Positions 6,407-53,037 of a DNA stretch of 53,037 nucleotides are shown here, in pieces. Position 1 is the first letter of the stretch, and every line of letters starts with the position of its first letter. The position numbers and the translations under genes were made by a program. The notes beneath the pieces were generated by a model. The model searched no databases. It had not been told where the DNA came from and saw only the letters and a program-made list of their open reading frames with translations. Origin of the DNA: Opitutales bacterium (GTDB taxonomy: Bacteria > Verrucomicrobiota > Verrucomicrobiia > Opitutales > Seribacteraceae); NCBI GenBank assembly GCA_028042835.1, contig JAOFOL010000012.1:1-53037 (forward strand), in the 5' to 3' direction.

Positions 6407-9400
6407 TTAAAGATAGTTTAATAAAGATGTATTTAGTAACTGGGCTCCAACTTGCATAGCTGCTTGATAAGCGGTAGATACTCGAGTCAGCCGCATTATG
6501 GCCTCTGACATATCAATTTCTAAATCTTTGGAAATTTGTTTATCCAATGCCATGACATAGTCCTCGTCATGAGTACGCACAGTCTCCATCCTCACCATCG
6601 TAGCAGAAAGCTCTCCCATTCTATCGATGATTGTGTCCTCCAGAGCAATAAGATCTTTTTCAGTCTCAGGGACAGTGCTCGGGGAAGTACTTTTTGCTGC
6701 GTCAAATAATCCATCTCGTAATTCAACTAGTGAATTTACAGCATTACCAAGAACTGCGGTGTTACCATTAGAGGCATTAAGCGTATAGGAAACATCGGTG
6801 TCTTTACCTACACGGGTTAAAGCATTCTCCTCACCTCCTTGATAAGTCACACTTAAAAGTTTACCATCATCATCTCTATGATCAAGGAAAGTTTTGGATC
6901 CTGTTGCAAATGAAAATGTATCACCAACTCGAGGGGAACTGAGTGCATTGTGATCAATGGCCTGACCATCATCAACTAATTCAAATCCCGATATTCTAAA
7001 CGGTCCGGGGTCAGCAGGGTTTTCTTCCCAAATAATATTAGCCATGAGTTGGGTCCCGTCTTGCAGAGTAATTGATGCTTTCTCAAAATCAGGGGGTACA
7101 ACACCATCGCTTGAAGAACCAAAAAAGTATCTTCCAGGGTCAAGTAATTTTAGCCCAACAACATCACCATCAGCATCTACAATTGCTTCTGCACTAGCAT
7201 CTTTACCAGAAGTACCTGCAGGATAAATTGAAACTTTAGGTGAATCTTCATGGGTAGTTTTAAACTTAAAAACATAATCAAGAGATTCTCCGAGAGGCAG
7301 CCAAATATCATTGGCAATTTCTTGGCCTTGTTCGTTAGTAATGAACTCATCATCCGGTTTGACTGCGACTTGGGAACCTTCAATATCTTGAAGAGCAATT
7401 TTGTTACTAAAATTGTCCACTTGACACTGAAAATAATTCCCTTTGTAGAGGACAATTTGTCCTTGATCATAAACCGAAGAAGATGACCATTCTGCACCTT
7501 GTCTTGTAGAATAGGAAGGTAAAGTTCCAAAAATAGTATCGTCTTCCAAATTTGGTTGATTAGTAAAATCTTGCAGTGCAACATGATACTGGGCGATCGG
7601 ATTACCTTCAGGGTCAAAAACACGACTAAACACATAGTCTCCTTTCTTCCCGGAAATAGAATCTCCATCCTGAAAAATAAGCTCTTTACCTTCTTTTGGC
7701 AGGTCTTTACCAAGAAAGAAAACGCCCCCACCCTCCCGGTTAGTCTCCTGAAGGTTGGGTAACTCAGTTACATCAAAAGACAGAGGATCCGTTGAAAGGT
7801 AATAATTACCTTCATAAGAAAACACTGAGCCTTGTGCCGGTTGAAAACCGTCAGTATACCTGTCAATTTGCCCCTTCAAATAAGGTGCGTCAATCACATC
7901 CCCGCCTTTTTGTGCAGCTGAAAGAGCATATTCTAGGGTCTTTGGATCGAATGTTGCGATCGCATTGGATATCGAACCTTGAACTGAGAAGTCGGTGACT
8001 GCGTACTTAACTTGCTTTACAAGAGCTTGTACATCTCCTTGAAGGGTGGCTGGATCATTGTACAGGCGGTTTGTTGAGTTAAGAAGTAAATCAGATGTGT
8101 ACTGAAGAGCGTCAGTATCATCTTCAAACATTTGTCCATCAGGAGACATGTAAAAAAATCGCTGTTTAACCCCGACGGCTTCAAGTTCCCAGTCTTCCCT
8201 CTCTCCAGAATAATCAGAGGGTAGTTCCTTCCAATAAAGATCTGACTCAAGAGAAGGTTTGTGGTTGGTATTATTTGGGATTTGAGACTCCCAAAACTTA
8301 CCTTCAAACTCTACTACATTACCTAATTTGAATGTCTGAAGCCTTTTCCATTGTTCTGAATGAATCGTGTCAAAAGAAGAAGTACCGTTAGATAAACTAC
8401 CTGAAACACTAATCGTTCTTTCCCAAGAAGTAGCGGGAATATCTCCTACAGGATTAATAGTATTGTTAGAAAAATAAGCCTCAACATCCAGAGCATTGCT
8501 GTATACAAGTGGGTCAATTTGGGTTTGATTTATAACACTGCCTGATCTTCTCCATGCATCATTGGTGAAAGTGACATCCTCTAGATAGAGTTGTGCCCCC
8601 TTATCGATAATAACAAAATCACCACCTACCGAACCTGTCTGTCCAGTAAGTTGATCCATCTGAGGACCAGTCAAATTGTAAACAGGTAAATCATCGGAGA
8701 AAACATGGCTACGAACTAAATCTTTGTCCTGAGCGGTAAGGTCGTCGTATCTTGAACCAGGAAACAATTCACTGGTTTTCTCGTTCAATTTACTATCAAC
8801 CTGCTCAGGGAAATACAAAGTCGGGTCCCATGTAGTAACAAAAGTTGCTGAAGCACTAAAATCTTCATCCACGGTTCCATATACCTCGAGATCGCCCGAC
8901 GCAGAAATCTTGGCATATAATTGAGCTTGTTGGTTCCGGTAATCATGAGGAGGCGGAGCCACTCGAACAAATGCTTCGTAACCGGCACTAGGGTCCGCCG
9001 GATTAGGTAAAGATGGAGAATCCGCTAAAATGCCCTGATCTTGATTAATCAAGTCTTTGGCAATTTCAGTAATTTGATCGGTGGATAAACCATCAGTCGT
9101 TGCCTTGACCACATACTCACGACCATTTAATTGGAAAACGACAGATTCAGTTGATTTAATCTCACGGGAACCGCTTATACCGTCGGTGCCAACCATACCA
9201 TTCTTTAAAGATATAGTTTTCTGCCTCTCCTGGCCAACTTGTACATCCGTACTACCAAAATTAGGTTTGTATTCAGTCCCAGCAAATAAAGAGCGACCTC
9301 TATGTTGAGCATTAATTCGATTGAGGGCTTCTTCAACCAATTGTTCTATCTCATGACCATAAGTCTCAGCAGCTGATTGGTTAATTTGAGATCCAGCAAC

Positions 9401-9685
9401 CCTGGAAATTTCCTGTGCTCTTTGATTAAGCTGTTGCAGATTATCTAAGTTAAGATGACCTGCATTCAAAAACTCGGATGCATAAGAAGCATTCCTCTGA
9501 TATTGGGCAAGTTTACCTTTTAATGCATCGGTCTGAATAAGTCTCCCAGTACGAATACCATCATCTTCAGGATATGTAATTTTTTGCCCTGTGGAAATTT
9601 GACGATCGAGCAAAAACCTCTGTTGATCTAAATCACGAATAGTGTTCGTGACATTACTAGAGACATTGAGGTTGGTAATTCGCAT
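6407..9685 (-). CDS. flgL: Giant hook-filament junction protein FlgL with carbohydrate-binding-like insert
   Basis: Residues 1 to about 145 are a normal flagellin-like N-terminal D0/D1 region (MRITNLNVSSNVTNTIRDLD, a coiled helix pair, then GRSLFAGTEY). About the last 120 residues are the matching C-terminal helices (VSTAYQAAMQVGAQLLNTSL). Typical FlgL is about 300 residues; this is 1092, with roughly 800 inserted between the two halves. Two insert segments (about 442-494 and 729-806) have the CBM5/12 pattern: W, then an aromatic with G-V, then Y/F-x-G-x-Y/W, ending W-x-x-L. A shorter copy lies around 612-635. FlgL is secreted by the flagellar export system and joins hook to filament, so the insert should be exposed on the cell exterior. 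It follows flgK by 2 bases. Confidence 0.92.
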   Translation of the reverse strand: MRITNLNVSSNVTNTIRDLDQQRFLLDRQISTGQKITYPEDDGIRTGRLIQTDALKGKLAQYQRNASYASEFLNAGHLNLDNLQQLNQRAQEISRVAGSQINQSAAETYGHEIEQLVEEALNRINAQHRGRSLFAGTEYKPNFGSTDVQVGQERQKTISLKNGMVGTDGISGSREIKSTESVVFQLNGREYVVKATTDGLSTDQITEIAKDLINQDQGILADSPSLPNPADPSAGYEAFVRVAPPPHDYRNQQAQLYAKISASGDLEVYGTVDEDFSASATFVTTWDPTLYFPEQVDSKLNEKTSELFPGSRYDDLTAQDKDLVRSHVFSDDLPVYNLTGPQMDQLTGQTGSVGGDFVIIDKGAQLYLEDVTFTNDAWRRSGSVINQTQIDPLVYSNALDVEAYFSNNTINPVGDIPATSWERTISVSGSLSNGTSSFDTIHSEQWKRLQTFKLGNVVEFEGKFWESQIPNNTNHKPSLESDLYWKELPSDYSGEREDWELEAVGVKQRFFYMSPDGQMFEDDTDALQYTSDLLLNSTNRLYNDPATLQGDVQALVKQVKYAVTDFSVQGSISNAIATFDPKTLEYALSAAQKGGDVIDAPYLKGQIDRYTDGFQPAQGSVFSYEGNYYLSTDPLSFDVTELPNLQETNREGGGVFFLGKDLPKEGKELIFQDGDSISGKKGDYVFSRVFDPEGNPIAQYHVALQDFTNQPNLEDDTIFGTLPSYSTRQGAEWSSSSVYDQGQIVLYKGNYFQCQVDNFSNKIALQDIEGSQVAVKPDDEFITNEQGQEIANDIWLPLGESLDYVFKFKTTHEDSPKVSIYPAGTSGKDASAEAIVDADGDVVGLKLLDPGRYFFGSSSDGVVPPDFEKASITLQDGTQLMANIIWEENPADPGPFRISGFELVDDGQAIDHNALSSPRVGDTFSFATGSKTFLDHRDDDGKLLSVTYQGGEENALTRVGKDTDVSYTLNASNGNTAVLGNAVNSLVELRDGLFDAAKSTSPSTVPETEKDLIALEDTIIDRMGELSATMVRMETVRTHDEDYVMALDKQISKDLEIDMSEAIMRLTRVSTAYQAAMQVGAQLLNTSLLNYL

Positions 9686-9687
9686 AG

Positions 9688-12600
9688 TTATTTAAGCAAT
9701 CCCATAACAACCAATTCTAACATTTTGTCGAGAGTATTTAATACCCGTGAGGATGCCTGGAATGATCTTTGAAATTGCATTAAATCGGCAACTTCTTCGT
9801 CAATTGAAACTGAACTGACAGACCTTCTCTGATCTAAAAGTAAATTCTCTAATGATTTCTGATGATCATAATTATCACTTAAGTCAGACATTTTATTTCC
9901 TATATCAGCATTTAAAGTCGAAATCTTGAGATTAAATTCACCATCTGCTAAAGCACCAATTTCGTAAGCAATATCGCTTGCACCCTCAGGTGTTGCCTCC
10001 GAAGACTTCAATAGATCAGGTGTTAAATCACTATCAACTTTTAAACTAGCTGCTAAATTCCAAGGGTTAGCCAAGACTGCATCGAAAGTGAAATTATCGC
10101 CAAGCAAGAAAGCTTGTGAACCTTGTTCTACACGAAATGGAATCTCCTCGTAAGCAAGCATTAATGACCGCCCTTCATCTCCTGTACCAATTAGTCCATC
10201 TTCCCCTATATAATTAGGGTCACCTTCAAAAGATATATGCTGCATTCTCCTGGCACTTCCGAAAAACTCATAAAATTGTCCTCCATCAGGACTGTCTAGT
10301 AAATTTTCTGTGTAGTCGTCGCCTCTAACGAAAAATGCATCGGGATTTGTTTGTAGTTCTGCAGGAAAAATCGGGGTTGAATTAACAATCTCAAAAGTAT
10401 CTGTCTCCGCAAATGGCAAAGTCATGTTCACTTCCTCATCAAATACCTTGAAAGTGCCATTTCCTTCCACTCCATATAGACCGTATTCCTCTTCCATTAT
10501 CTTATTATTACCCATTACGGGTCGTGACAGAAAGGAATCAAAACCAAACAAGTATCCCCCGGGTTCATCAGTCGGGTTATGTAAACCATTTACTTTCTCA
10601 ACAAATGAAGAGACCAGACCGTTTAATTCCGTCCTGTACAGTTCAATTCCGTTAACCCGGGCATTTTGGTAACCAGCAAGAACACCTGATTCGGTAACAA
10701 TCTCGAGAGCTTGCCCAGCTTCATTACCTTCAATTAAGATAGCATCATTACTCGGGAAGCCATTCCCTTTATTAATTATATTAAATCCTTTAATTTCACC
10801 GCCACTTACAACAGCTTCCGCTAGGCCTAAATTGACTTCCACCAAGACTCCTGTATTCACATCATAACCTGAAGGTGAATTTAGCCTGACCACTTCTTCT
10901 GGATTATCAGCGCTGACCTGAGCTTTGAAAAGTTTAAAATTTGACTTCCATTGGTTGTCGTTCGGATTGAAATTAGCTATTTCAAGAGGATCAGATATAG
11001 GCAGGTCCGGAGCAGATTTGATTAAATAGTGATTTCCATCAAATAATAAAACATCACCTTCAGTATTACTGAAATCAAGTTCTTGTGCTTGAGTGGTGTT
11101 ATTGAAGGCAAGAAAATCATCAACCTTTTTTGTAGTTTCTGAAAAAGCACTAACTTTAAGAAACTGCTCAGAAGCAGATGGTGCGGTGGGATTAGCGACT
11201 AGATCTACATCATCAAGCGCAATGTAGTAATCATAAGAAATCTCACCGACTCCAGATCCGTTATCTACCCTAAGGTAATCACCTTTATCCACAGTAGCAT
11301 CAAGTAAAGGATCTTTTATTTCAGGATCGTTTAAATTGGGGAGAGTATTACCTAAGGCAACTACACTTCCCGCAACACCGGTTTCACCAAAAACATTCAA
11401 TGAAACCAGCTCACCTTTTTCTCGACCTTGAAGGTTTACTTCTAATTCAGCATTTCGAGCGATATTAGTCGATGCCTGAAAATATGAGTCTCCAAATTTG
11501 AAAATATCATTTTTAAGATAATTTCGGCCTGAAGATTGATTGCCTGTTTCTTCAGAAACAGGAGAAACAGTAGATGTGGCTTGGTATAATTTACCTTCGT
11601 AGTAAATCTGATCACCTGCATCAAAAGATTCAAGATCTGAAAAAGATTTCTTAACTTCGTTCACCTGACCATTCGGAAATTGAGTAATTTCCATGAAAAG
11701 ATTACTACCATTCGGGTCAGTACCTGCTATGGTGTTGTCAAGTGCTTGCCACAGAGCAGTCTCACCATCTGGTTTTTGAAAATAGAATACATCTCCCTTA
11801 TTTCTTTTTAAATTTTCAGCGGGCGCAACAACAGCGTTAGCCACTTCGTTGAGTAATTCACTCAACCCTGCTCCATCGTCAACAGGCTGCCCTGCCGGAA
11901 GAACATCAACCGCACCTTGTGCAGCCGCAGTCTGCGGGGCTACTTGTGCATTGGCAGCAACGTCATCTGAAATAGGTTTAGGAGGGAGTAGGCTAACCAA
12001 AATAGGACCATCTGTGTCATCAAACAAGGTTCCACTATTTTGGACTTCAAGAAAACCTAACTGCCCGTTGGAGTCGATCTTAGCATGAATTTTTGCATCA
12101 GTACCGTTAACTCCATTGGAAGAAAGTGAGAAGTCTTGATTCCACTTATTGGTGAGCTTCTTTGGACCGGTAGAGTCAAGAAGCTTAATCTGCTGCCCGT
12201 CTTTTGATGTAGCAAACACATTAAGGAAACCAGTTGCCTCACCAGTGTTTAGATCGGCGGCATCTTCAACCTTAACTTCCATTAACTTTGAGAGATCTTC
12301 CAGTAAAGCTTGTCTACGGTCCCGATAGGTAACGGCTTTACCCTTATCTTGTAACTCAAACCTTCTAACCTGTTTATTGACCTCGTGAAGTTGACTGAGG
12401 ATTCTATTTACATCATCAATACTTCGAGCAACCGTTTGAGTAAGGTCGTACTCAATATCCTCTAAGCTTTGACCTGCATCGTTAAACCTTTTTGTTAATG
12501 TTTGAGTTTTATTGTAAAGTTCCTGCCTGATCGTGGCTTCATCAGGGGAAGCTGAAAGTTCTTGGAATGCATTGAAAAAGTCATTGAGAGCTCTTGCTAA

Positions 12601-12978
12601 ACTACCAGGAGCTAAAATACTATCGTGAGTATCGTCTAAGCCTGCATTAATTTGAGGACTAGTTAATGTTTCACCCAAAGCCGCCTGCAATAGGTCAAAA
12701 ACCTCCTTTTCAGCCTCCAAGGCCGCAGTTTGCCCGACTTCATCGACCACTCTGCGGTCGAGGAAATCATTTCTTACATGCTCCAAACCTCCGGATTCAA
12801 GACCTGAAGTCAACAATCCACCATGCGATCCATACATAACGCCCTCTCTAGCCAGAACTCTCTGGCGGGCATATGTTTCATCATTTACATGAGCTAAATT
12901 CTGACCTGCAATCTCAGCAGTCTTCGCATGATAACGAAGTGCTTCGCTACTTTTGCTTATTTCTCCGAGTAAAGACAT
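9688..12978 (-). CDS. flgK: Giant hook-associated protein FlgK with repeated insert modules
   Basis: The N-terminus (MSLLGEISKSSEALRYHAKT, then AGQNLAHVNDETYARQRV) and the C-terminus (VSIDEEVADLMQFQRSFQAS, then LNTLDKMLELVV) are standard FlgK D0/D1 regions. The first 290 residues follow the family closely. The protein is 1096 residues, against about 550 normally. The central insert holds repeated short beta modules with the pattern G-D-x-I/V-x-Y/F-x-G-x-x-Y-x-A/S: at about 447-470 (GDQIYYEGKLYQAT), 485-505 (FKFGDSYFQAS) and 637-687 (GDVLLFDGNHYLI, followed by W). Similar modules occur in FlgL, encoded next door. Like FlgL it is exported and lies at the hook-filament junction. Confidence 0.92.
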   Translation of the reverse strand: MSLLGEISKSSEALRYHAKTAEIAGQNLAHVNDETYARQRVLAREGVMYGSHGGLLTSGLESGGLEHVRNDFLDRRVVDEVGQTAALEAEKEVFDLLQAALGETLTSPQINAGLDDTHDSILAPGSLARALNDFFNAFQELSASPDEATIRQELYNKTQTLTKRFNDAGQSLEDIEYDLTQTVARSIDDVNRILSQLHEVNKQVRRFELQDKGKAVTYRDRRQALLEDLSKLMEVKVEDAADLNTGEATGFLNVFATSKDGQQIKLLDSTGPKKLTNKWNQDFSLSSNGVNGTDAKIHAKIDSNGQLGFLEVQNSGTLFDDTDGPILVSLLPPKPISDDVAANAQVAPQTAAAQGAVDVLPAGQPVDDGAGLSELLNEVANAVVAPAENLKRNKGDVFYFQKPDGETALWQALDNTIAGTDPNGSNLFMEITQFPNGQVNEVKKSFSDLESFDAGDQIYYEGKLYQATSTVSPVSEETGNQSSGRNYLKNDIFKFGDSYFQASTNIARNAELEVNLQGREKGELVSLNVFGETGVAGSVVALGNTLPNLNDPEIKDPLLDATVDKGDYLRVDNGSGVGEISYDYYIALDDVDLVANPTAPSASEQFLKVSAFSETTKKVDDFLAFNNTTQAQELDFSNTEGDVLLFDGNHYLIKSAPDLPISDPLEIANFNPNDNQWKSNFKLFKAQVSADNPEEVVRLNSPSGYDVNTGVLVEVNLGLAEAVVSGGEIKGFNIINKGNGFPSNDAILIEGNEAGQALEIVTESGVLAGYQNARVNGIELYRTELNGLVSSFVEKVNGLHNPTDEPGGYLFGFDSFLSRPVMGNNKIMEEEYGLYGVEGNGTFKVFDEEVNMTLPFAETDTFEIVNSTPIFPAELQTNPDAFFVRGDDYTENLLDSPDGGQFYEFFGSARRMQHISFEGDPNYIGEDGLIGTGDEGRSLMLAYEEIPFRVEQGSQAFLLGDNFTFDAVLANPWNLAASLKVDSDLTPDLLKSSEATPEGASDIAYEIGALADGEFNLKISTLNADIGNKMSDLSDNYDHQKSLENLLLDQRRSVSSVSIDEEVADLMQFQRSFQASSRVLNTLDKMLELVVMGLLK

Positions 12979-29854: not shown

Positions 29855-30640
29855 TTATCGTTTTAAATTAATTGCTTCTTGGAGAATGGAATCTGAAGTA
29901 GTAACTACACGAGAACCTGCTTGAAAAGATCTTTGATGGGAGATCATAGAAGCGAATTGATTAGTTAAGTCTACATTAGAAAGTTCGAGAGAGTACTGCT
30001 TTAGTTTACCATTTGAACCACTGGCCGGGATAGGGTTATCTACAGCACCCGCAAGATTTTCGCCGGGCGACCCATTAGAGAAAAAACCATTCCCTGCCCT
30101 CCTCAAATATTGTGGCGATTGAAAATTAACAATACTAATTTGACCAACATTACGGATAATATCTTCAGTTCCCCCGTTAGCGTCTTCTTTTGAAACAACA
30201 AGGTTGATCCTACCATCCTCCTCGATTCTCCTGGCGAGCAAAGTTTCACCTTCTTCCAATGATACCTGAAGTCCACCGTTAATTCCTTGAAGCTGGTAAC
30301 GGTATTGGTCACGAGTAACTAGTAAACCTTGATTTGTCGCTTCGAAAGCTCCTGCTCTCGTAAAGTAGACTTCTTCAGTGTTAGGATCGACCACCTGAAA
30401 GAAACCTCCAGCATTGGGTAATGCTTCTCCTTGGATGGCAACATCTAGATCCAATCCGGTGACCTCGATTGTGCCCTGATTAAAGTCAGAAGATATCGAA
30501 CTAACATGGACGCCTGTACCATGTTGTTGAAGATTGTTGCTTGGTACGCCACCTTCTCCGGATTCAGCATCATTTAAATGAAGATAAAAAATTGTCTGAA
30601 TAATTAGCTCTAGAAGATTTGTATCCCAATGAGTTAACAT
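29855..30640 (-). CDS. flgE: Flagellar hook protein FlgE, main part (out of frame with its N-terminus)
   Basis: From about residue 24 onward this frame is a clear hook protein: LQQHGTGVHVSSISSDFNQG, LDLDVAIQGEALPNAGGFFQ, YFTRAGAFEATNQGLLVTRD, and C-terminal LSNVDLTNQFASMISHQRSF. The first 22 or so residues of the open frame are not family-like. The real N-terminus is encoded one frame away at 30570-30722. Joined, the protein would be about 290 residues, shorter than the usual 400 or more, because the outer D2-type domain is reduced. See the N-terminal entry and the T6 tract for the break. Confidence 0.88.
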   Translation of the reverse strand: MLTHWDTNLLELIIQTIFYLHLNDAESGEGGVPSNNLQQHGTGVHVSSISSDFNQGTIEVTGLDLDVAIQGEALPNAGGFFQVVDPNTEEVYFTRAGAFEATNQGLLVTRDQYRYQLQGINGGLQVSLEEGETLLARRIEEDGRINLVVSKEDANGGTEDIIRNVGQISIVNFQSPQYLRRAGNGFFSNGSPGENLAGAVDNPIPASGSNGKLKQYSLELSNVDLTNQFASMISHQRSFQAGSRVVTTSDSILQEAINLKR

Positions 30641-45969: not shown

Positions 45970-48900
45970 TTAAAACTGAGACCACACTTTATTCTTAAAG
46001 TCGTAAGCGTTTAGCTCCGGACTCGGACCATTTTCGGTCCAAAAAACCCAAGAAGAAATATCAGAGCGGTATAGATAGCCCGAACTCTCATTCTCCCACA
46101 AGCTATGCTCCGTCCATAACCACCCCCACCCTTCTTTCCAGAGCCAAAATGAGTCGTTATCAATCTCTTCGAGAAATAACCACCCCAATTGATAATGAAA
46201 ACTCCATCCGTTTTCGAAATCTAATCTATTACTAATCAAGGAATTATTATTTTCAGAATTCCCAGCATCTATATCTTGGTTGTCCTCTATTTTATTTAAG
46301 ATCAGTTTAACTTTAAACATATTTGATTCACCCGAATTGTCAGAAGCAAATATTTTTAAATCAAATTCACCCGAGGTATTATTATTATCTAAAATTAGCA
46401 GCGCTTGATCAGCATGGCTTCTTTGAACCGTAGCCCAACTTGGTCCCTCTACATGTAAGTCTACATCATCTCCGTCTAGATCAAAAATCTTGAATTCAAC
46501 TTTTTTATTTTCTCCCTCGAACATAACAATTTCTTTGGGAATATCTAATTCAGGCAAAACATTCTCCTCAGTTGATAATTCTAAATTAAACTTTAAGCGT
46601 AAATCATCATCGCTCTGCGTTTCAATGATAGAAAAATCGAATGGTATAATTGCTTCAAAATTAGGTGCGATTCCATGAAATCGCACATTACCTAGACTAT
46701 CAATCTCCACATGTATCCATTTATAATTTTTCTCTTCATCAAATAATGAAACTTCAAACATACCATTTTTAACGGACCAAGATTCTGTATATATAGTGAA
46801 ATCAAATGGAAATGATGAATTAAGGTGGGTTGGTGGGGCATTGAGAGCTCTAGGTTTATTTGGCTTTTCTCCAAAGGTATTGAGGAAAGACTGCTCAGTT
46901 TTTGTAATAGGCGAATAAGTCTTTCCGCCCACAAGCATAAACTCATTCGTCATAACCCCTAAAACATCAATTCTATCTTCTTTAACAGTTGAAAGATGAT
47001 AGTTATCAAAAAGTCGATGATTTTCAGTGTGAATTTTAGATATTAATGCATCACTAGATCCCATTGCTTGAAAAGTTTCATTTCCAACTTTGATATTTTG
47101 ATAAAAACTGGATGCAACAACATATGAATTCAGCCCAATACAGCTCATAGAGGTTAAACGGTCGTTCCATGGACCACCGATACTAGAGTAGTGGCTGCTT
47201 AAAAGCCCATTCTCTGTTGAACTATTAAAAATATCGAATCCTCCATTAGAGGAAAGGTTGCCGTTTGCCCAAGATAATTCCTTTTCAAATTCAAAGGAAA
47301 AAACAACTAAATTAGAAGTAGGTGCTCTTGCTAATAAACCATTATTTATTCGACCGGATGAAAAATAGTTACTTTCATTAACTAGACTACCGTTATCATC
47401 TAATTGAATTAAACGGAAAAACATTTTTGGATTTGTTAATCGATCCGCCTGATTATCGACCTCGCCTACCATTCCAACTACAGATTGATTGTTTTTTAAA
47501 GGAACAATATCATTAGCGTAATCATCTCCGCTCTCGCCAAAACATTTAACCCATTTAAAATCATAAAAATTCAGTCGATCAATTTGAGCAACGAAACTAT
47601 CACTAGAATTACCTTTTGCCGTATATTCATTTCCTCCGAACTTAGTCGATGAATTAAAGGAACCGCAAATTATCAGATTCTCTTCATTGACTAATATGCC
47701 ACCAGCTTTTTCTGCATACACATGACCAAATTGTTTGCTTTGGATGATATTACCATTTCGGTCAACTTCTAGAATAAACAGGTCTGAAGAACCTCTCGAA
47801 GAAAGTACTTTTGAACCGACCCTCAGTGAATTACTAAAATTACCATAAAGAAAAACAGTACCTTCTTTAGAAACCTTTAAATCAGCTAGATGGACCGGTG
47901 ATCCAGAATGAATCGAAATAATTTCTGTTAAAGTCATATCTTCAGACAAATATTTTAATTTGTAATTATAATTCGAAGCATTTGTAGACTCCTCAGGGAA
48001 ACGACCAGCAACTACCCATCCAAAATCAGAAAACCCCGAGATATGGGAGAACTCATCACGACGATTAAGGGCAATATAAGAATTATCGTTCTTTTCGGGT
48101 AGTAAGCCTAATTCTCGATCCAACTGCTCGTTTCTCTTAAATGTTACGGGTATCTTTTTTTCTTTATACGCTCCATCAATAGTGAAAACCACTACACTCA
48201 AATCGTCCACATTCTCAATATCTTCCAGAAGTAAGTCTTGGGTATTTCCAGAAATTTGTGCGGTGCCATTTGCTCCATCGATTTCTGTTAATTCCATCCA
48301 TGAAGGACCTGATTTAATTTCAAAAAATAAATACTCAGGATGTAATGCATTCAATTGAAAAGAAAATGAACCGAGGTTTTCGATTTCTAATTTCTCTGTC
48401 GTAATTATCGGTAGACCTGTTTTCGGAAGCAATGCAACTCCATGAATTTCCTCTGAGGTAGTCTGAGAAAAAGCCACATCATCTTGATACAATCCTAAAC
48501 TCGTTTGGAAAAAAAGAAAAGGCGTACCGTAAGAGTTTAACTTCAGTGAATTGACTGTTTCATTACCATCTCCCCCGATATGCTTATCCCAAATTTGTCC
48601 ACCATCATCAGCATCCAATAGAGACAACTGCAAGTCACAGCCTCCCTTGGCTACTAGTGAACCAATAGCATGATTTATCTCACCTGAAAACTCTTGGACC
48701 ACAAATAAATCTCCCCAATAATCAATTTCAACATCACGGATGCTTGAGACTCCTGAACTGGGAAAAGATCTTGCCCAACTAAGGTTCCCATAACTATCAG
48801 CAGAAATAATAAAAGCAGTTTGTTGCATACTTGAAAAAACTAATTGTTGCTCACTTGAAACAGCTCCCGAAAAATCTCCTCCTATAAACAATCTATTATT

Positions 48901-51900
48901 ACTAACCTCAAAATCATGCACAGAAACACTTTCATTGGAATCAAACCAAAATTCATCCAATACTTTAAATGTTTCATCAATTGTCAAAAAATGTGCTCTA
49001 TTAGCAACGCTGCCTGCAGGTACTGTTAATGCAACATATTTGTCTCCTCCAAAGCTTTTAAAACTCTTCAACTTAGAACCTAAAATTAATGGAATACTCT
49101 TACTTGTAGATAAATCTCCTTCTGCCGAAAATCTGCATACAAAAAAGTTTGATGCATTAGACTCTAAACTATTTGCATAATCGTCAAAATAAAGATCAGA
49201 GGAATAATTTCCCGCGAGAACCACATCCCCTCCGTTATCAACGAGTAAGCTTAAATTGTTTAAAGGAGTTGTTGTCCCAATAGTTTTAATCCAAACCAAC
49301 TCCCCAATATCTGAATATGCGGCAAGAAAAGTACTATGATTAAAATCCGATGAAACTCTTTTTGAAGAAACGGTCAATAATCCTGAAAAATCCCCTGCTA
49401 TATAAGTTCTCTCAGGACTTCTTGCTATTTTAACTAAACTCACATTCTCTGCGAAGAATTCTGAATTAACTCTCCATGCCGAGAAATCACTTGCCAACGA
49501 TATCCATGACGATGTTTTCAAATCAATAGCATCTGTGAGTTCACCGTTGATTTCTAGTGTCTGAAAAGATGAGGAAATTATATCAACTTCGTCATTTTTT
49601 CGCCACCCATATTCCTTACTTTCACCAAGAAACTTAATCCGGTTTTCACTTAAAACTAAAGCACTACCTTCGTACTCTTTTATTAGGCGTCCTGCATGGG
49701 CTTTATTACCGAAAATATCAGCCACCTCGTATTCCATTTTGCTAAAACCATAATCATCAGTCCCCCCTTCTGTAACTTTCACATCACTAGTTAAATCATT
49801 ACTCCTTGCATCCGTTGCATCGTAACCGCGTTCTTGAAAAGGTCTAAGGTTTGAAATCCTCACAACAGAATCCCCCTGTAATATAATTTTGGGTGGTCTT
49901 CCATCTGTTACATTTATTTCAAAATCCAGCTCCTCCGTACTACCCTCTCCTCGCACACTTACTACCATACTGTAAACCCCGGCACTTCCGATCGGTGCAA
50001 CTCCACTGATCTCGTAATTATCATCCGTTCCTTGCGAGAGGTTTACCCACTCAGGGCGGTGCAATATTTTCATTTCAATATCAGCTAATTCATTAGATGA
50101 GTTAACGAATATTATTTGCGAGAAACCTTGCGTTTCTTTTATTGAAATTGGTCCGCTTACACCTGAGACGGTCAGATTATTATCCCAATTAACAATTGGT
50201 TCAATAACTATGGAATCACTACTAACACCATCGGTAGATTTTATTTCAAATTTATCATAATTTGATTTTATTGCTGTTGGTTTAAAAAGGAATTTGTCAG
50301 GAAGACTACCATTTCCTTCTACAACTATTTCTCCATCGGTATATTCATCACCATCAATCAATGACCACATGAGAATGTCACCATCTAAATCGATTGCTCT
50401 CATTGAGTCGTAATTAGAAATGGGAACCCCGTCCTGGCTAAAAATTACCTGCAGTGCAGTCGGTATAATTGAAGGGGGTGAATTGACTCCATTCACATCA
50501 AAAGTAATACCCTGATTTGAAATTAATCCCGTATCGTCAATTAATACAATAGTGTATGGAAAAACCTTTCCATTTACTCCAACTTGAGGAACTCCACGGA
50601 GAAAAAACTCACCTGTTATATTTCCTTCATCTACGCTTAACCAGGGGTCAACTTCCCAAGAAGGGCCAACAAGGCGGCATTGAATCTCTTGAGAATCAAC
50701 ATCCCCAGCAAGTATCTTCAATTCAAATAAATCACTCTCATTAACAATATAAGAGGATTGCAATGCAGTGATAAAATAAGGAGGATCAGGAACTTCAGAC
50801 ACTCGAATCTCAAAATCCATTTCAGTAGTTCTATCACCTTCATCCATAATTAAACTGAAATAATCTATTCCTGAAAAGTTTTTTGGCGGAGTGTATTTGA
50901 AAAGACTGGGTTTCCCTCCTGCCCCCCCAACGCTAAGATTGCTACCAATGATAGAGTTTCTGGCAATAGACCAATTAATTTCAGCGTAATCATCACTATC
51001 AGGATCAGGGTTAACTGCCATGAATCCCTTTGGGTTTATCCAATTACTTATTTCTTCATCTTCTTTGAGATAAAGTGTAATATTTTTCAAAACTGTACTA
51101 GTTTTTAGTGATTTAAATACTGGCGGAAAATCTCTTACGATAAGATTGAGTAAGAATGTTTGAGTTGTAGTGTTACCAGCTAAGTCAAAAACATTAATCT
51201 TTATTCTGTGTAATCCAGCATCGGAGATACTCGCATTTCCGTGAAGTTTCCCTTGCCCATTTCCCTGATCTTCAAATTTCAGCCAACTTGGAAGAGAGGC
51301 GGCAATTACAGTTAATTCATCTTCGGGCATATCTCCGTCAGTAGCTTCAAATTGATAAGAAAAAGGCTGATCCTCATATGCCTCCTTGGGTGGAGATGTT
51401 AAAATAGCGGGAACATCCTCAACTGGACTTATATTAATAGTAAAACTTACCTCATCAAACTTTGAATCTCCATTTGTTGTGCCTGAGTCATCCACTCTTA
51501 CAGTAAATTGGTCATTACCATAGTAGTCATTGTGAGGCGTGTAGAAAACGGATTGTAAATTTGTAGCGGCAGAAAAGGAAATATCTCCATGGTTAGGACC
51601 ATTTATAATACTCCACACATGACCACTAGATTGATCTTCATCGCTCACTGTCAGATCGATTAACTTCGCAGAACCTTGATCTTCATCTATATCCAAGTCA
51701 TCAAACCCAACATTAATTTGAGGTGGATAATTAAGTACAACCACTTTGATATCAAAAGAAAGAGTGCTGAATAGATCTGTGTGATCAATCACTTTTACTT
51801 CAAAGGTGCTATTTCCCTCATCCTCTACAGCGGGACTGCCTGACAAATAAAGTTCACCTGATGTAAAATTACTTTCATTTACTGATAGCCAGTCCGGTTT

Positions 51901-53037
51901 AGAAAGAATTTCATATTTATTCAGATCATTATCTCCATCTATAAAAGTAACCAGTTGCTGGACAAGATCGCCATCTTCATAACTTAAAACCAAACCATTT
52001 TGGTTAGAGGTAAAAATTGGCGTATCATCAGCACTTAAAATCGTAAAATAATATGTGAATTCATCTGTATCAATACCATCACTCACTTCAATAGTAACGA
52101 AATCATTTCCATAGAAATTCTTAATGGGTGAATACTTTATAAATGAGAAATCATCTTCATCAGTAGAAATGACGACTTCTCCATTTGATGGTTCCGCAAC
52201 GACTTCCCATAACAATCTTTGATTATTTTGATCTGTGCAAGTTAATGGATTCTGCATTTCCCAATAACCATCCTCTACCATTTCAACATTTAAAGATTCA
52301 CCTTCGTTGATCACAGGTGGAGCATTTTCAAGTAAAACATTTACACTAAATATTTGAGTGCCATGCAAACCGGTATTATCAACGACACCTAATGTAACTT
52401 CAAATTCCCCTACATCACCTACATCGGGTTTTCCTCTTATACTAGCTTTTGTAATATTGCCTTCTGAATCATCAACCGTATTAAGCCAAGATACATCTAG
52501 TGGAATATTCGAAAAAGTGACGGATTGGTTTACATCACCATCTACTGCAAAGTAATTATAATACCACTCATATCCGACAACTGCATCGGTGTATTTTGGG
52601 ACTGAACTTATTACCGGATTATCCTCTACACTTCTTATGCTGATTGGAATGGTAAGAGTATCGCTTGAATTACTATCTACTGGGGGGTTGAAAATCTTTA
52701 CCCTGACATTATCAATTCCACTAAAGTTTCCATCAGGAGTGTAATCTATAAAAGCTGCACTCCCCTGAATATCTAATGTAATATCGCCATAACTTGGCTG
52801 CTCCAAAACTTGCCATTCCACAGATTCATTTGGATCATCACTGAGGTCATAGTAAGTCAAAGGTATTCTTAAACTTACATCTTCGTCAGTAAAGCGGGTT
52901 TCATTATCTTCATTATAAAATGTCGGCGGATAATTAATTGGAATGACTCTCACTAAGAGAATCTTAGAGTCACTCAATCCCCCAGGGTCTGTTACAGTCA
53001 AAGTAACTTCATCAGGACTAGCTTTATAATCATTCCA
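45970..53037 (-). CDS. Giant cadherin-like and beta-propeller surface protein, 5' partial
   Basis: The frame is open to the right edge, giving 2355 residues without the N-terminus. Residues about 1-1045 are tandem Ig/cadherin-like units with recurring YYGNDQFTV-, D-x-D and P-x-F-type patterns plus He_PIG-like PSWL...GNAS pieces. About 1045-1115 is DUF5011-like (LQGDSVVRISNLRPFQERGY). About 1180-1545 and 1660-1995 are SBBP-type propeller repeats (GDVVLAGNYSSDLYFDDYAN). Ig-like units follow, and the last 85 residues are Trp-rich (LGWLFLEEIDNDSFWLWKEG, WGWLWTEHSLWENESSGYLY), a C-terminal module I associate with large secreted Verrucomicrobiota proteins. It is expected to be secreted and perhaps adhesive. 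It ends 6 bases from the convergent dxs. Confidence 0.9.
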   Translation of the reverse strand, partial: WNDYKASPDEVTLTVTDPGGLSDSKILLVRVIPINYPPTFYNEDNETRFTDEDVSLRIPLTYYDLSDDPNESVEWQVLEQPSYGDITLDIQGSAAFIDYTPDGNFSGIDNVRVKIFNPPVDSNSSDTLTIPISIRSVEDNPVISSVPKYTDAVVGYEWYYNYFAVDGDVNQSVTFSNIPLDVSWLNTVDDSEGNITKASIRGKPDVGDVGEFEVTLGVVDNTGLHGTQIFSVNVLLENAPPVINEGESLNVEMVEDGYWEMQNPLTCTDQNNQRLLWEVVAEPSNGEVVISTDEDDFSFIKYSPIKNFYGNDFVTIEVSDGIDTDEFTYYFTILSADDTPIFTSNQNGLVLSYEDGDLVQQLVTFIDGDNDLNKYEILSKPDWLSVNESNFTSGELYLSGSPAVEDEGNSTFEVKVIDHTDLFSTLSFDIKVVVLNYPPQINVGFDDLDIDEDQGSAKLIDLTVSDEDQSSGHVWSIINGPNHGDISFSAATNLQSVFYTPHNDYYGNDQFTVRVDDSGTTNGDSKFDEVSFTINISPVEDVPAILTSPPKEAYEDQPFSYQFEATDGDMPEDELTVIAASLPSWLKFEDQGNGQGKLHGNASISDAGLHRIKINVFDLAGNTTTQTFLLNLIVRDFPPVFKSLKTSTVLKNITLYLKEDEEISNWINPKGFMAVNPDPDSDDYAEINWSIARNSIIGSNLSVGGAGGKPSLFKYTPPKNFSGIDYFSLIMDEGDRTTEMDFEIRVSEVPDPPYFITALQSSYIVNESDLFELKILAGDVDSQEIQCRLVGPSWEVDPWLSVDEGNITGEFFLRGVPQVGVNGKVFPYTIVLIDDTGLISNQGITFDVNGVNSPPSIIPTALQVIFSQDGVPISNYDSMRAIDLDGDILMWSLIDGDEYTDGEIVVEGNGSLPDKFLFKPTAIKSNYDKFEIKSTDGVSSDSIVIEPIVNWDNNLTVSGVSGPISIKETQGFSQIIFVNSSNELADIEMKILHRPEWVNLSQGTDDNYEISGVAPIGSAGVYSMVVSVRGEGSTEELDFEINVTDGRPPKIILQGDSVVRISNLRPFQERGYDATDARSNDLTSDVKVTEGGTDDYGFSKMEYEVADIFGNKAHAGRLIKEYEGSALVLSENRIKFLGESKEYGWRKNDEVDIISSSFQTLEINGELTDAIDLKTSSWISLASDFSAWRVNSEFFAENVSLVKIARSPERTYIAGDFSGLLTVSSKRVSSDFNHSTFLAAYSDIGELVWIKTIGTTTPLNNLSLLVDNGGDVVLAGNYSSDLYFDDYANSLESNASNFFVCRFSAEGDLSTSKSIPLILGSKLKSFKSFGGDKYVALTVPAGSVANRAHFLTIDETFKVLDEFWFDSNESVSVHDFEVSNNRLFIGGDFSGAVSSEQQLVFSSMQQTAFIISADSYGNLSWARSFPSSGVSSIRDVEIDYWGDLFVVQEFSGEINHAIGSLVAKGGCDLQLSLLDADDGGQIWDKHIGGDGNETVNSLKLNSYGTPFLFFQTSLGLYQDDVAFSQTTSEEIHGVALLPKTGLPIITTEKLEIENLGSFSFQLNALHPEYLFFEIKSGPSWMELTEIDGANGTAQISGNTQDLLLEDIENVDDLSVVVFTIDGAYKEKKIPVTFKRNEQLDRELGLLPEKNDNSYIALNRRDEFSHISGFSDFGWVVAGRFPEESTNASNYNYKLKYLSEDMTLTEIISIHSGSPVHLADLKVSKEGTVFLYGNFSNSLRVGSKVLSSRGSSDLFILEVDRNGNIIQSKQFGHVYAEKAGGILVNEENLIICGSFNSSTKFGGNEYTAKGNSSDSFVAQIDRLNFYDFKWVKCFGESGDDYANDIVPLKNNQSVVGMVGEVDNQADRLTNPKMFFRLIQLDDNGSLVNESNYFSSGRINNGLLARAPTSNLVVFSFEFEKELSWANGNLSSNGGFDIFNSSTENGLLSSHYSSIGGPWNDRLTSMSCIGLNSYVVASSFYQNIKVGNETFQAMGSSDALISKIHTENHRLFDNYHLSTVKEDRIDVLGVMTNEFMLVGGKTYSPITKTEQSFLNTFGEKPNKPRALNAPPTHLNSSFPFDFTIYTESWSVKNGMFEVSLFDEEKNYKWIHVEIDSLGNVRFHGIAPNFEAIIPFDFSIIETQSDDDLRLKFNLELSTEENVLPELDIPKEIVMFEGENKKVEFKIFDLDGDDVDLHVEGPSWATVQRSHADQALLILDNNNTSGEFDLKIFASDNSGESNMFKVKLILNKIEDNQDIDAGNSENNNSLISNRLDFENGWSFHYQLGWLFLEEIDNDSFWLWKEGWGWLWTEHSLWENESSGYLYRSDISSWVFWTENGPSPELNAYDFKNKVWSQF

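Follow-up and report, generated by a model that had tools for sequence, protein, structure and literature searches.

A giant FlgL with CBM5/12-like modules in a family of Verrucomicrobiota

Introduction

Growth of outer domains is already known for flagellins and for the junction proteins of Campylobacter. FlgL proteins of 750-950 residues have been described in Campylobacter and related organisms (PMC5691160), and giant flagellins in many lineages, Verrucomicrobia not being among those named in section 12 of PMC6248924. Here we describe an enlarged FlgL, the hook-filament junction protein HAP3, encoded in a stretch of 53,037 nucleotides from an Opitutales bacterium (Verrucomicrobiota, family Seribacteraceae; contig JAOFOL010000012.1, positions 1 to 53,037), which we call the window. 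An original prediction, made from the letters of the window, had placed chitin-binding-type modules in an insert of this FlgL and suggested a flagellum that grips polysaccharide particles. We found that the flagellar exterior has been rebuilt with CBM5/12-like modules in a lineage-specific way. What is new is the pattern of shared modules across four axial proteins, FlgK, FlgL, FliD and flagellin.

The Campylobacter system resembles this one in its oversized junction proteins with extra outer domains, in the joint change of FlgK and FlgL, and in the extra domain of FliD (PMC5691160, PMC12221982). It differs in belonging to another phylum, and the main texts of these articles do not mention a CBM5/12 module. 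Giant flagellins of marine gammaproteobacteria also exceed 1000 residues, with an insert replacing D2/D3 and with repeat domains (PMC6248924), but there it is flagellin that is enlarged, whereas in the window's family it is mainly FlgL and FlgK, joined by FliD and flagellin in several relatives. Flagellinolysin is likewise an axial protein with a functional-type domain, a metallopeptidase, in its variable region; it is a protease with reported activity (PMC5595980), whereas the window modules are of a non-catalytic type and are known from sequence. Among the NCBIfam models of FlgL are some of 749 and 827 positions, and those for large FlgLs match the window FlgL only at the ends. In the open-licence literature, a scope that leaves out most subscription papers, we did not find a report of CBM-type modules in FlgL, FlgK or FliD. 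With one module type recurring in four axial proteins, it can be asked whether the flagellar surface that does not serve motility evolves as a single mosaic, and also whether pelagic polysaccharide specialists hold food by the flagellum.

A long insert in FlgL

The flgL open reading frame (ORF) starts with ATG, has no internal stops and encodes 1092 residues (amino acids, aa). Its outline is as follows.

6407..9685, minus strand: flgL, giant hook-filament junction protein (HAP3), 1092 aa, adjoining flgK, fliW and csrA
9275..9673, minus strand: N-terminal D0/D1 of FlgL, Flagellin_N, residues 5-137 (Pfam E 9.7e-7, 29.4 bits, cut-off 26.6)
6410..6592, minus strand: C-terminal D1/D0 of FlgL, Flagellin_C, residues 1032-1092 (Pfam E 0.031, below cut-off)

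The NCBIfam model flagell_flgL matched both ends in two stretches, with 118.5 bits and thus under its cut-off of 127.2, and the C-terminal positions were conserved in an alignment of 31 FlgLs, four of them of ordinary size. Between these FlgL-type ends lies an insert of about 800 residues, as had been predicted. The accompanying statement that the D0/D1 ends are intact is borne out for Flagellin_N; Flagellin_C and flagell_flgL were matched as well, both below their cut-offs. The coding span 7280-8360 given for the insert comprises modules A to C, described below, and not the whole gene, and the size of about 300 residues given as normal for FlgL suits sister families (297-298) and not Campylobacter (750-950; PMC5691160).

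A fused or misassembled ORF could also look like this, and the genome from which the window comes (G000) is a fragmented draft, 63% complete with 2.1 Mb. However, three further named records carry the gene intact, with 78-85% identity, and the family contains 25 complete genes of 930-1500 aa. We therefore rejected an artefact, the probability of which we consider negligible. The named relatives are the Verrucomicrobiota/Opitutia records TMED44, ARS1007, AG-891-C06 and AG-919-G08, which we take to be marine.

Distribution and selection

Flagellar exterior proteins in the window's family are about two to four times the usual size. All 28 complete FlgKs of the family are enlarged (1020-1724 aa), as are the 25 complete FlgLs; in four genomes of sister families FlgK has 464-476 aa and FlgL 297-298 aa. 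FlgL was found in 51 of the 92 genomes searched, and in the 16 of these that lie outside the family its open frames had 271-339 aa, except for one of 519 aa (G051). A phylum-wide search gave FlgL-model matches in 31 of 288 genomes. Its 26 highest-scoring rows, all outside the family, had frames of 301-521 aa with two exceptions (987 and 1019 aa), in which the FlgL match spanned only about 296 codons; the lower rows, among the matches listed, held flagellin-like frames of up to 769 aa, which were not inspected. In the samples searched, the large form is limited to one bacterial family. Within it, 34 of the 42 genomes had an N-terminal FlgL match, a count that includes G005 and a weak, flagellin-like match in G013. 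Two cross-class matches were dropped when FlgL was sorted from FlgK.

Two bins stood out in this survey. A 26th family gene, the 513-aa FlgL of G005, is identical at 512 of 513 residues to the FlgL of G051, a genome of another family (L039:1442-2980, L064:2809-4347), and is probably bin contamination. The G051 protein, of 513 aa, holds one CBM5/12-like module and may be an intermediate state. The other bin carries two different flgK-flgL pairs (G008:C142 and G008:C268), with FlgKs of 1094 and 1724 aa, the second being close in size to those of members of genus g2 (1660 and 1709 aa); duplication, transfer or contamination may explain this.

Among four close relatives, the nonsynonymous measure pN was 0.08-0.16 in the insert and 0.03-0.07 in the N-terminal D0/D1, and the synonymous measure pS of the insert was 0.75-0.82, with synonymous sites near saturation. 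The insert, with low pN and near-saturated pS, is therefore kept as a protein, and it is under purifying selection. Another idea is that the domains act as decoys or shields, against phages that bind flagella or against grazers for instance, and vary for that reason. Both this constraint on amino acids and the conservation of two module positions across the family speak against it, and we assign it little probability.

CBM5/12-like modules in the insert

Two modules and one weak candidate were delimited in the insert.

8216..8356, minus strand: module A, residues 444-490, CBM5/12-like, with conserved W-K-R-L, N-x-N-H-x-P and W-K-E-L (profile comparison; AlphaFold2 (AF2) model with pLDDT 66; fold comparison)
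7628..7837, minus strand: possible module B, residues 617-686, a weak candidate that we do not count as a module (its sole match, with the module C profile after iteration, has E 0.031)
7292..7501, minus strand: module C, residues 729-798, CBM5/12-like (Pfam CBM_5_12 at 732-760)

The original prediction had drawn attention to segments 8205-8360 and 7280-7500 (residues ~442-494 and ~729-802) for their chitin-binding type 3 layout, and the residues it described are present: W446, F452, G455, V458, G462, W465 and W485-K-E-L488 in module A, and W733, Y739, G742, I744, G749, F752 and W795-L-P-L798 in module C. Pfam CBM_5_12 (PF02839) matched residues 732-760 of module C with E 2.6e-6 and 27.8 bits, over the cut-off of 26.2; in a six-frame search of the genome the same place scored 25.7 bits, slightly under it. 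Module A of the window FlgL gave no Pfam match at E up to 1, so that the proposed Pfam check holds for one segment and not for the other. As a single sequence, module A also found nothing below E 0.31 among PDB sequences, and its typing therefore needed profiles. Its profile aligned with that of module C over 28 columns (probability 92%, E 6e-7), and the family profile of module C matched the solved chitin-binding domains 1ED7 (E 2.5e-4) and 4NY2 (E 4.3e-6). The prediction of CBM5/12-family modules in the insert is thus upheld, directly for C and through profile alignment for A.

In a fold comparison of module A, chitinases and chitin deacetylases ranked first, and the sole row in the VIA listing of Foldseek's best 110 chains that was not a chitin-active enzyme was a phage fibre. 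We consider A and C to be one module family: comparison of the profiles ties A to C, and a weak model gives A the same fold. The window modules agree in profile and in core aromatics with CBM5 and CBM12 domains (1ED7, 2RTS, 2D49, and the Vibrio chitin deacetylases 4NY2 and 3WX7), but they have no consecutive aromatic pair on the binding face. Two matches came from other machines: 7B5H (All3316 protein), presumably of a contractile injection system, by sequence profile to module A, and 8KEC, a cyanophage tail fibre, by a weak fold match. A whole-FlgL AF2 model from five sequences had a mean pLDDT of 37.1 and a pTM of 0.27 and was not used.

Ten residues were identical in all 33 module A sequences: W446, R448, L449, G455, S467, N472, N474, P477, W485 and Y492. 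In the loop N-x-N-(H)-x-P, both N and the P were present in 33/33 and the H in 30/33. From the module A set we dropped one extra-module row, and from the module C set seven rows (four with long insertions and three from cut genes that gave module A), with one further sequence excluded for an undetermined residue; rows above the E-value limits were dropped as well. We propose that FlgL is a functional hook-filament junction protein whose outward-facing D2 region would consist of small beta modules of the CBM5/12 (ChtBD3) type, arrayed alongside other segments.

We also looked at viral sequences. No FlgL relative was confirmed on viral contigs, and the window FlgL and FlgK had no match in PHROGs at E up to 0.01. 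Module C, mainly its first half, is shared by four viral loci.

Shared elements in other axial proteins

The comparison with other axial proteins drew on these features.

9688..12978, minus strand: flgK, 1096 aa, also enlarged (FlgK_D1 E 6.5e-30; Flg_bbr_C E 6.5e-9; TIGR02492 188 bits, over cut-off)
11401..11649, minus strand: FlgK residues 444-526, two weak CBM5/12-like modules (iterated profile E 4e-7 and 2e-6; the profile itself includes FlgKs)
7124..7192, minus strand: second shared element of FlgL, residues 832-854, AEAxVDxxGxVVGLKxxxPGRYF (pattern, also in FlgK)
10756..10821, minus strand: AEAxV element of FlgK, residues 720-741 (pattern search)

Pfam CBM_5_12 was matched at E up to 0.1 by 26/31 FlgL and 5/32 FlgK, a count that includes the suspected contaminant G005, and at E up to 0.01 by 6/14 FliD and 5/6 giant flagellins. 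We then took profiles made from FlgL only to the 654 ORFs of the fetched loci. The module A profile had 35 matches (33 FlgL and 2 FliD) and the module C profile 43 (33 FlgL, 8 FlgK, 1 flagellin and 1 oxidase-like protein), those in FlgL being by construction and those in other classes not; 8/34 FlgK, 2/16 FliD and 1/7 large flagellins were reached in this way, and none of 535 shuffled proteins matched either profile at E below 0.01, so that the module matches exceed chance. When the profiles were iterated over FlgL and FlgK, which makes them in-sample for FlgK, at least one module was found at E up to 0.01 in 29 FlgK and 8 FliD. The FlgK of the window had no Pfam CBM match.

The AEAxV...G..YF pattern occurred in 26/41 FlgL, 17/35 FlgK, 0/16 FliD and 0/7 flagellins, and shuffling gave 0.8 in 99 proteins per round. 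Furthermore, with the terminal regions left out (first 170 and last 130 residues), 41 insert alignments crossed protein classes: 27 between flagellin and FlgL, 12 between FlgK and FlgL, and 2 between FlgL and FliD. The best of them joined a flagellin and an FlgL with 44% identity over 232 residues (E 9e-43). Stretches and elements held in common by different axial proteins point to a probable mosaic growth of the flagellar exterior.

FliD reaches 1951 aa in relatives. Two very long caps, of 1923 and 1951 aa (L091:2843-8614, L098:5419-11274), had no or weak module matches. At least one flagellin frame of about 940-1035 aa, alignable with the giant flagellin over almost its full length, was present in 11 of 57 genomes searched (two in G008; three rows with a stop codon in the matched stretch), and giant flagellins occur beside many of ordinary size. 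Flagellins form multigene families, often with ten or more matches per genome (G007:C35, G001:C42, G008 contigs and others).

Possible function of the modules

The modules may serve as a contact surface for material outside the cell, a reading to which we give a probability of about 0.48. In the junction structure solved for Salmonella, the D2 domains are exposed (PMC12221982), and by this analogy the predicted position of the insert on the cell exterior is supported. The helical ends of FlgL would build the junction as usual, and the insert would sit where D2 sits, facing outward. Stacked modules would stand out from the ring of FlgL, from FlgK beneath it and, in relatives, from FliD and flagellin, and the modules at the junction, the cap and parts of the filament would together form a contact surface toward extracellular material. 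Their partner would most likely be algal polysaccharide gel or particles, met by a binding face that differs from the canonical chitin face.

The window's genome has 70 sulfatase matches in its 2.1 Mb, at least two genes being counted twice, which is consistent with the polysaccharide degrader that had been suggested. It has one GH18 match over the cut-off, of 58 bits and partial (profile positions 64-238 of 317), and GH18 was matched in 15 of the 42 family genomes, many of them incomplete. Given a sulfatase-rich genome with few GH18 matches, we infer that a bound glycan, if there is one, would more likely be sulfated algal polysaccharide than chitin. In the MB11C04 Verrucomicrobiota, sulfatase-rich bloom populations that are not assigned here to the window's family, flagellar components are reported to have been prominently abundant in late-bloom metaproteomes (PMC8857213). 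A polysaccharide contact surface is plausible in the sulfatase-rich lineage of the window. The boldest form of this idea, that the whole family made its flagellar exterior, from junction to cap and including part of the filament, into a modular glycan-contact organelle of shuffled CBM5/12-like modules that touches or holds sulfated algal polysaccharide by a new binding face, seems to us rather unlikely.

In CBM5, a consecutive aromatic pair is almost fully conserved and contacts chitin together with a third aromatic, and two further aromatics form part of the core (PMC8449059). We aligned 195 module segments to a profile, most of them from FlgL (105) and FlgK (65), and searched there for the pair; 18 segments have a gap at one of the two places, leaving 177. 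On our assumption, the pair lies four and five residues after a core aromatic. The core aromatics were kept, and neither Y-W nor W-W was found in any of the 177 segments, nor an aromatic at either place. At model position 32, which we take to align with the tryptophan of ChiA1, presumably W687, the modules mostly have H, N or D, with an aromatic in about 1% of 121 rows. Aromatics do occur at position 17 in about half of the rows and at position 21 in 62%, so another aromatic binding face may exist on the modules. Regular-expression tests tried earlier had flagged the pair in 60/187 merged modules and 37/310 cores; the printed cases among the latter were mis-anchored on the core doublet (G-x-Y-Y and similar), and the profile-column test replaced them.

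These results bear on the strong form of the original prediction, in which true CBM5/12 domains bind chitin or a similar crystalline glycan and the flagellum grips particles. The Pfam match over the cut-off, the profile matches to chitin-binding domains, the rank of chitinases and chitin deacetylases in the fold comparison and the single GH18 match all favour it. However, the missing pair and the scarcity of GH18 speak against it, and on these grounds we rejected a chitin specialist. Canonical chitin binding by the modules is unlikely, and there is only a slim chance that the strong form is right; of the gripping flagellum, the part that is not supported is a grip on chitin by the known face.

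The missing pair also counts against a contact surface, and so do several further observations. A CBM_5_12 module (E 3e-7) is present in an oxidase-like membrane protein of 226 aa, which resembles subunit IV of caa3 oxidase (L097:2607-3287, G000:C30; the subunit IV match is from NCBIfam and below the curated cut-off). Sugar binding is not expected there, and the module alone therefore does not imply it. The stricter FlgL-only profiles missed most FlgK, FliD and flagellins. No module was found in the FliDs of the near relatives G022 and G020 (775-776 aa) or in the cut FliD of the window's genome (573 aa present), and no giant flagellin was found in that genome, which is 63% complete; its flagellin-type frames, among the matches listed, had 276-318 aa, one of them cut by a contig end. 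Finally, the main texts of PMC5691160 and PMC12221982, on the bulky FlgL and the extra FliD domain of Campylobacter, do not contain the word "carbohydrate". Several relatives also have frames of about 230-243 aa with a CBM_5_12 match.

Alternatively, the modules could be beta-sheet spacers that bind no sugar and make the junction, cap and filament thicker or stiffer, or lock them, as the bulky outer domains of Campylobacter or the giant flagellins of marine gammaproteobacteria may do. The absence of sugar-contacting aromatics fits this, as does the joint enlargement of FlgL and FlgK. Packing of the cap in Campylobacter jejuni is affected by the bulky D2 of FlgL and the D4 of FliD (PMC12221982), and for Campylobacter FlgK it has been proposed that divergence kept it fitted to its changing partners (PMC5691160). 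The same module type is moreover found in the solved machine 7B5H (E 0.0016) and in the oxidase-like subunit. On the other hand, module number and insert length vary between relatives, which load-bearing packing would not obviously tolerate, and the conserved polar N-x-N-(H)-x-P loop of module A may form a site, or else a turn. Such a structural role is a real possibility, nearly as likely as a polysaccharide contact surface.

Other genes of the window

On the minus strand, flgK lies directly upstream of flgL, and fliW and csrA follow. Pfam names nearby include FlgN, FlgI, FlgH, FlgA, rod/hook-type proteins, FlhA, FlhB, FliF, FliH, an ATPase of type III secretion system type and FliM; from its position, the ATPase is probably FliI. 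A hook/rod-type protein of the cluster (29855-30640, 261 aa) is not enlarged, unlike FlgL and FlgK. An ORF of 2343 aa at 45970-53001 has bacterial Ig, He_PIG and cadherin-like domains and is likely a surface protein.
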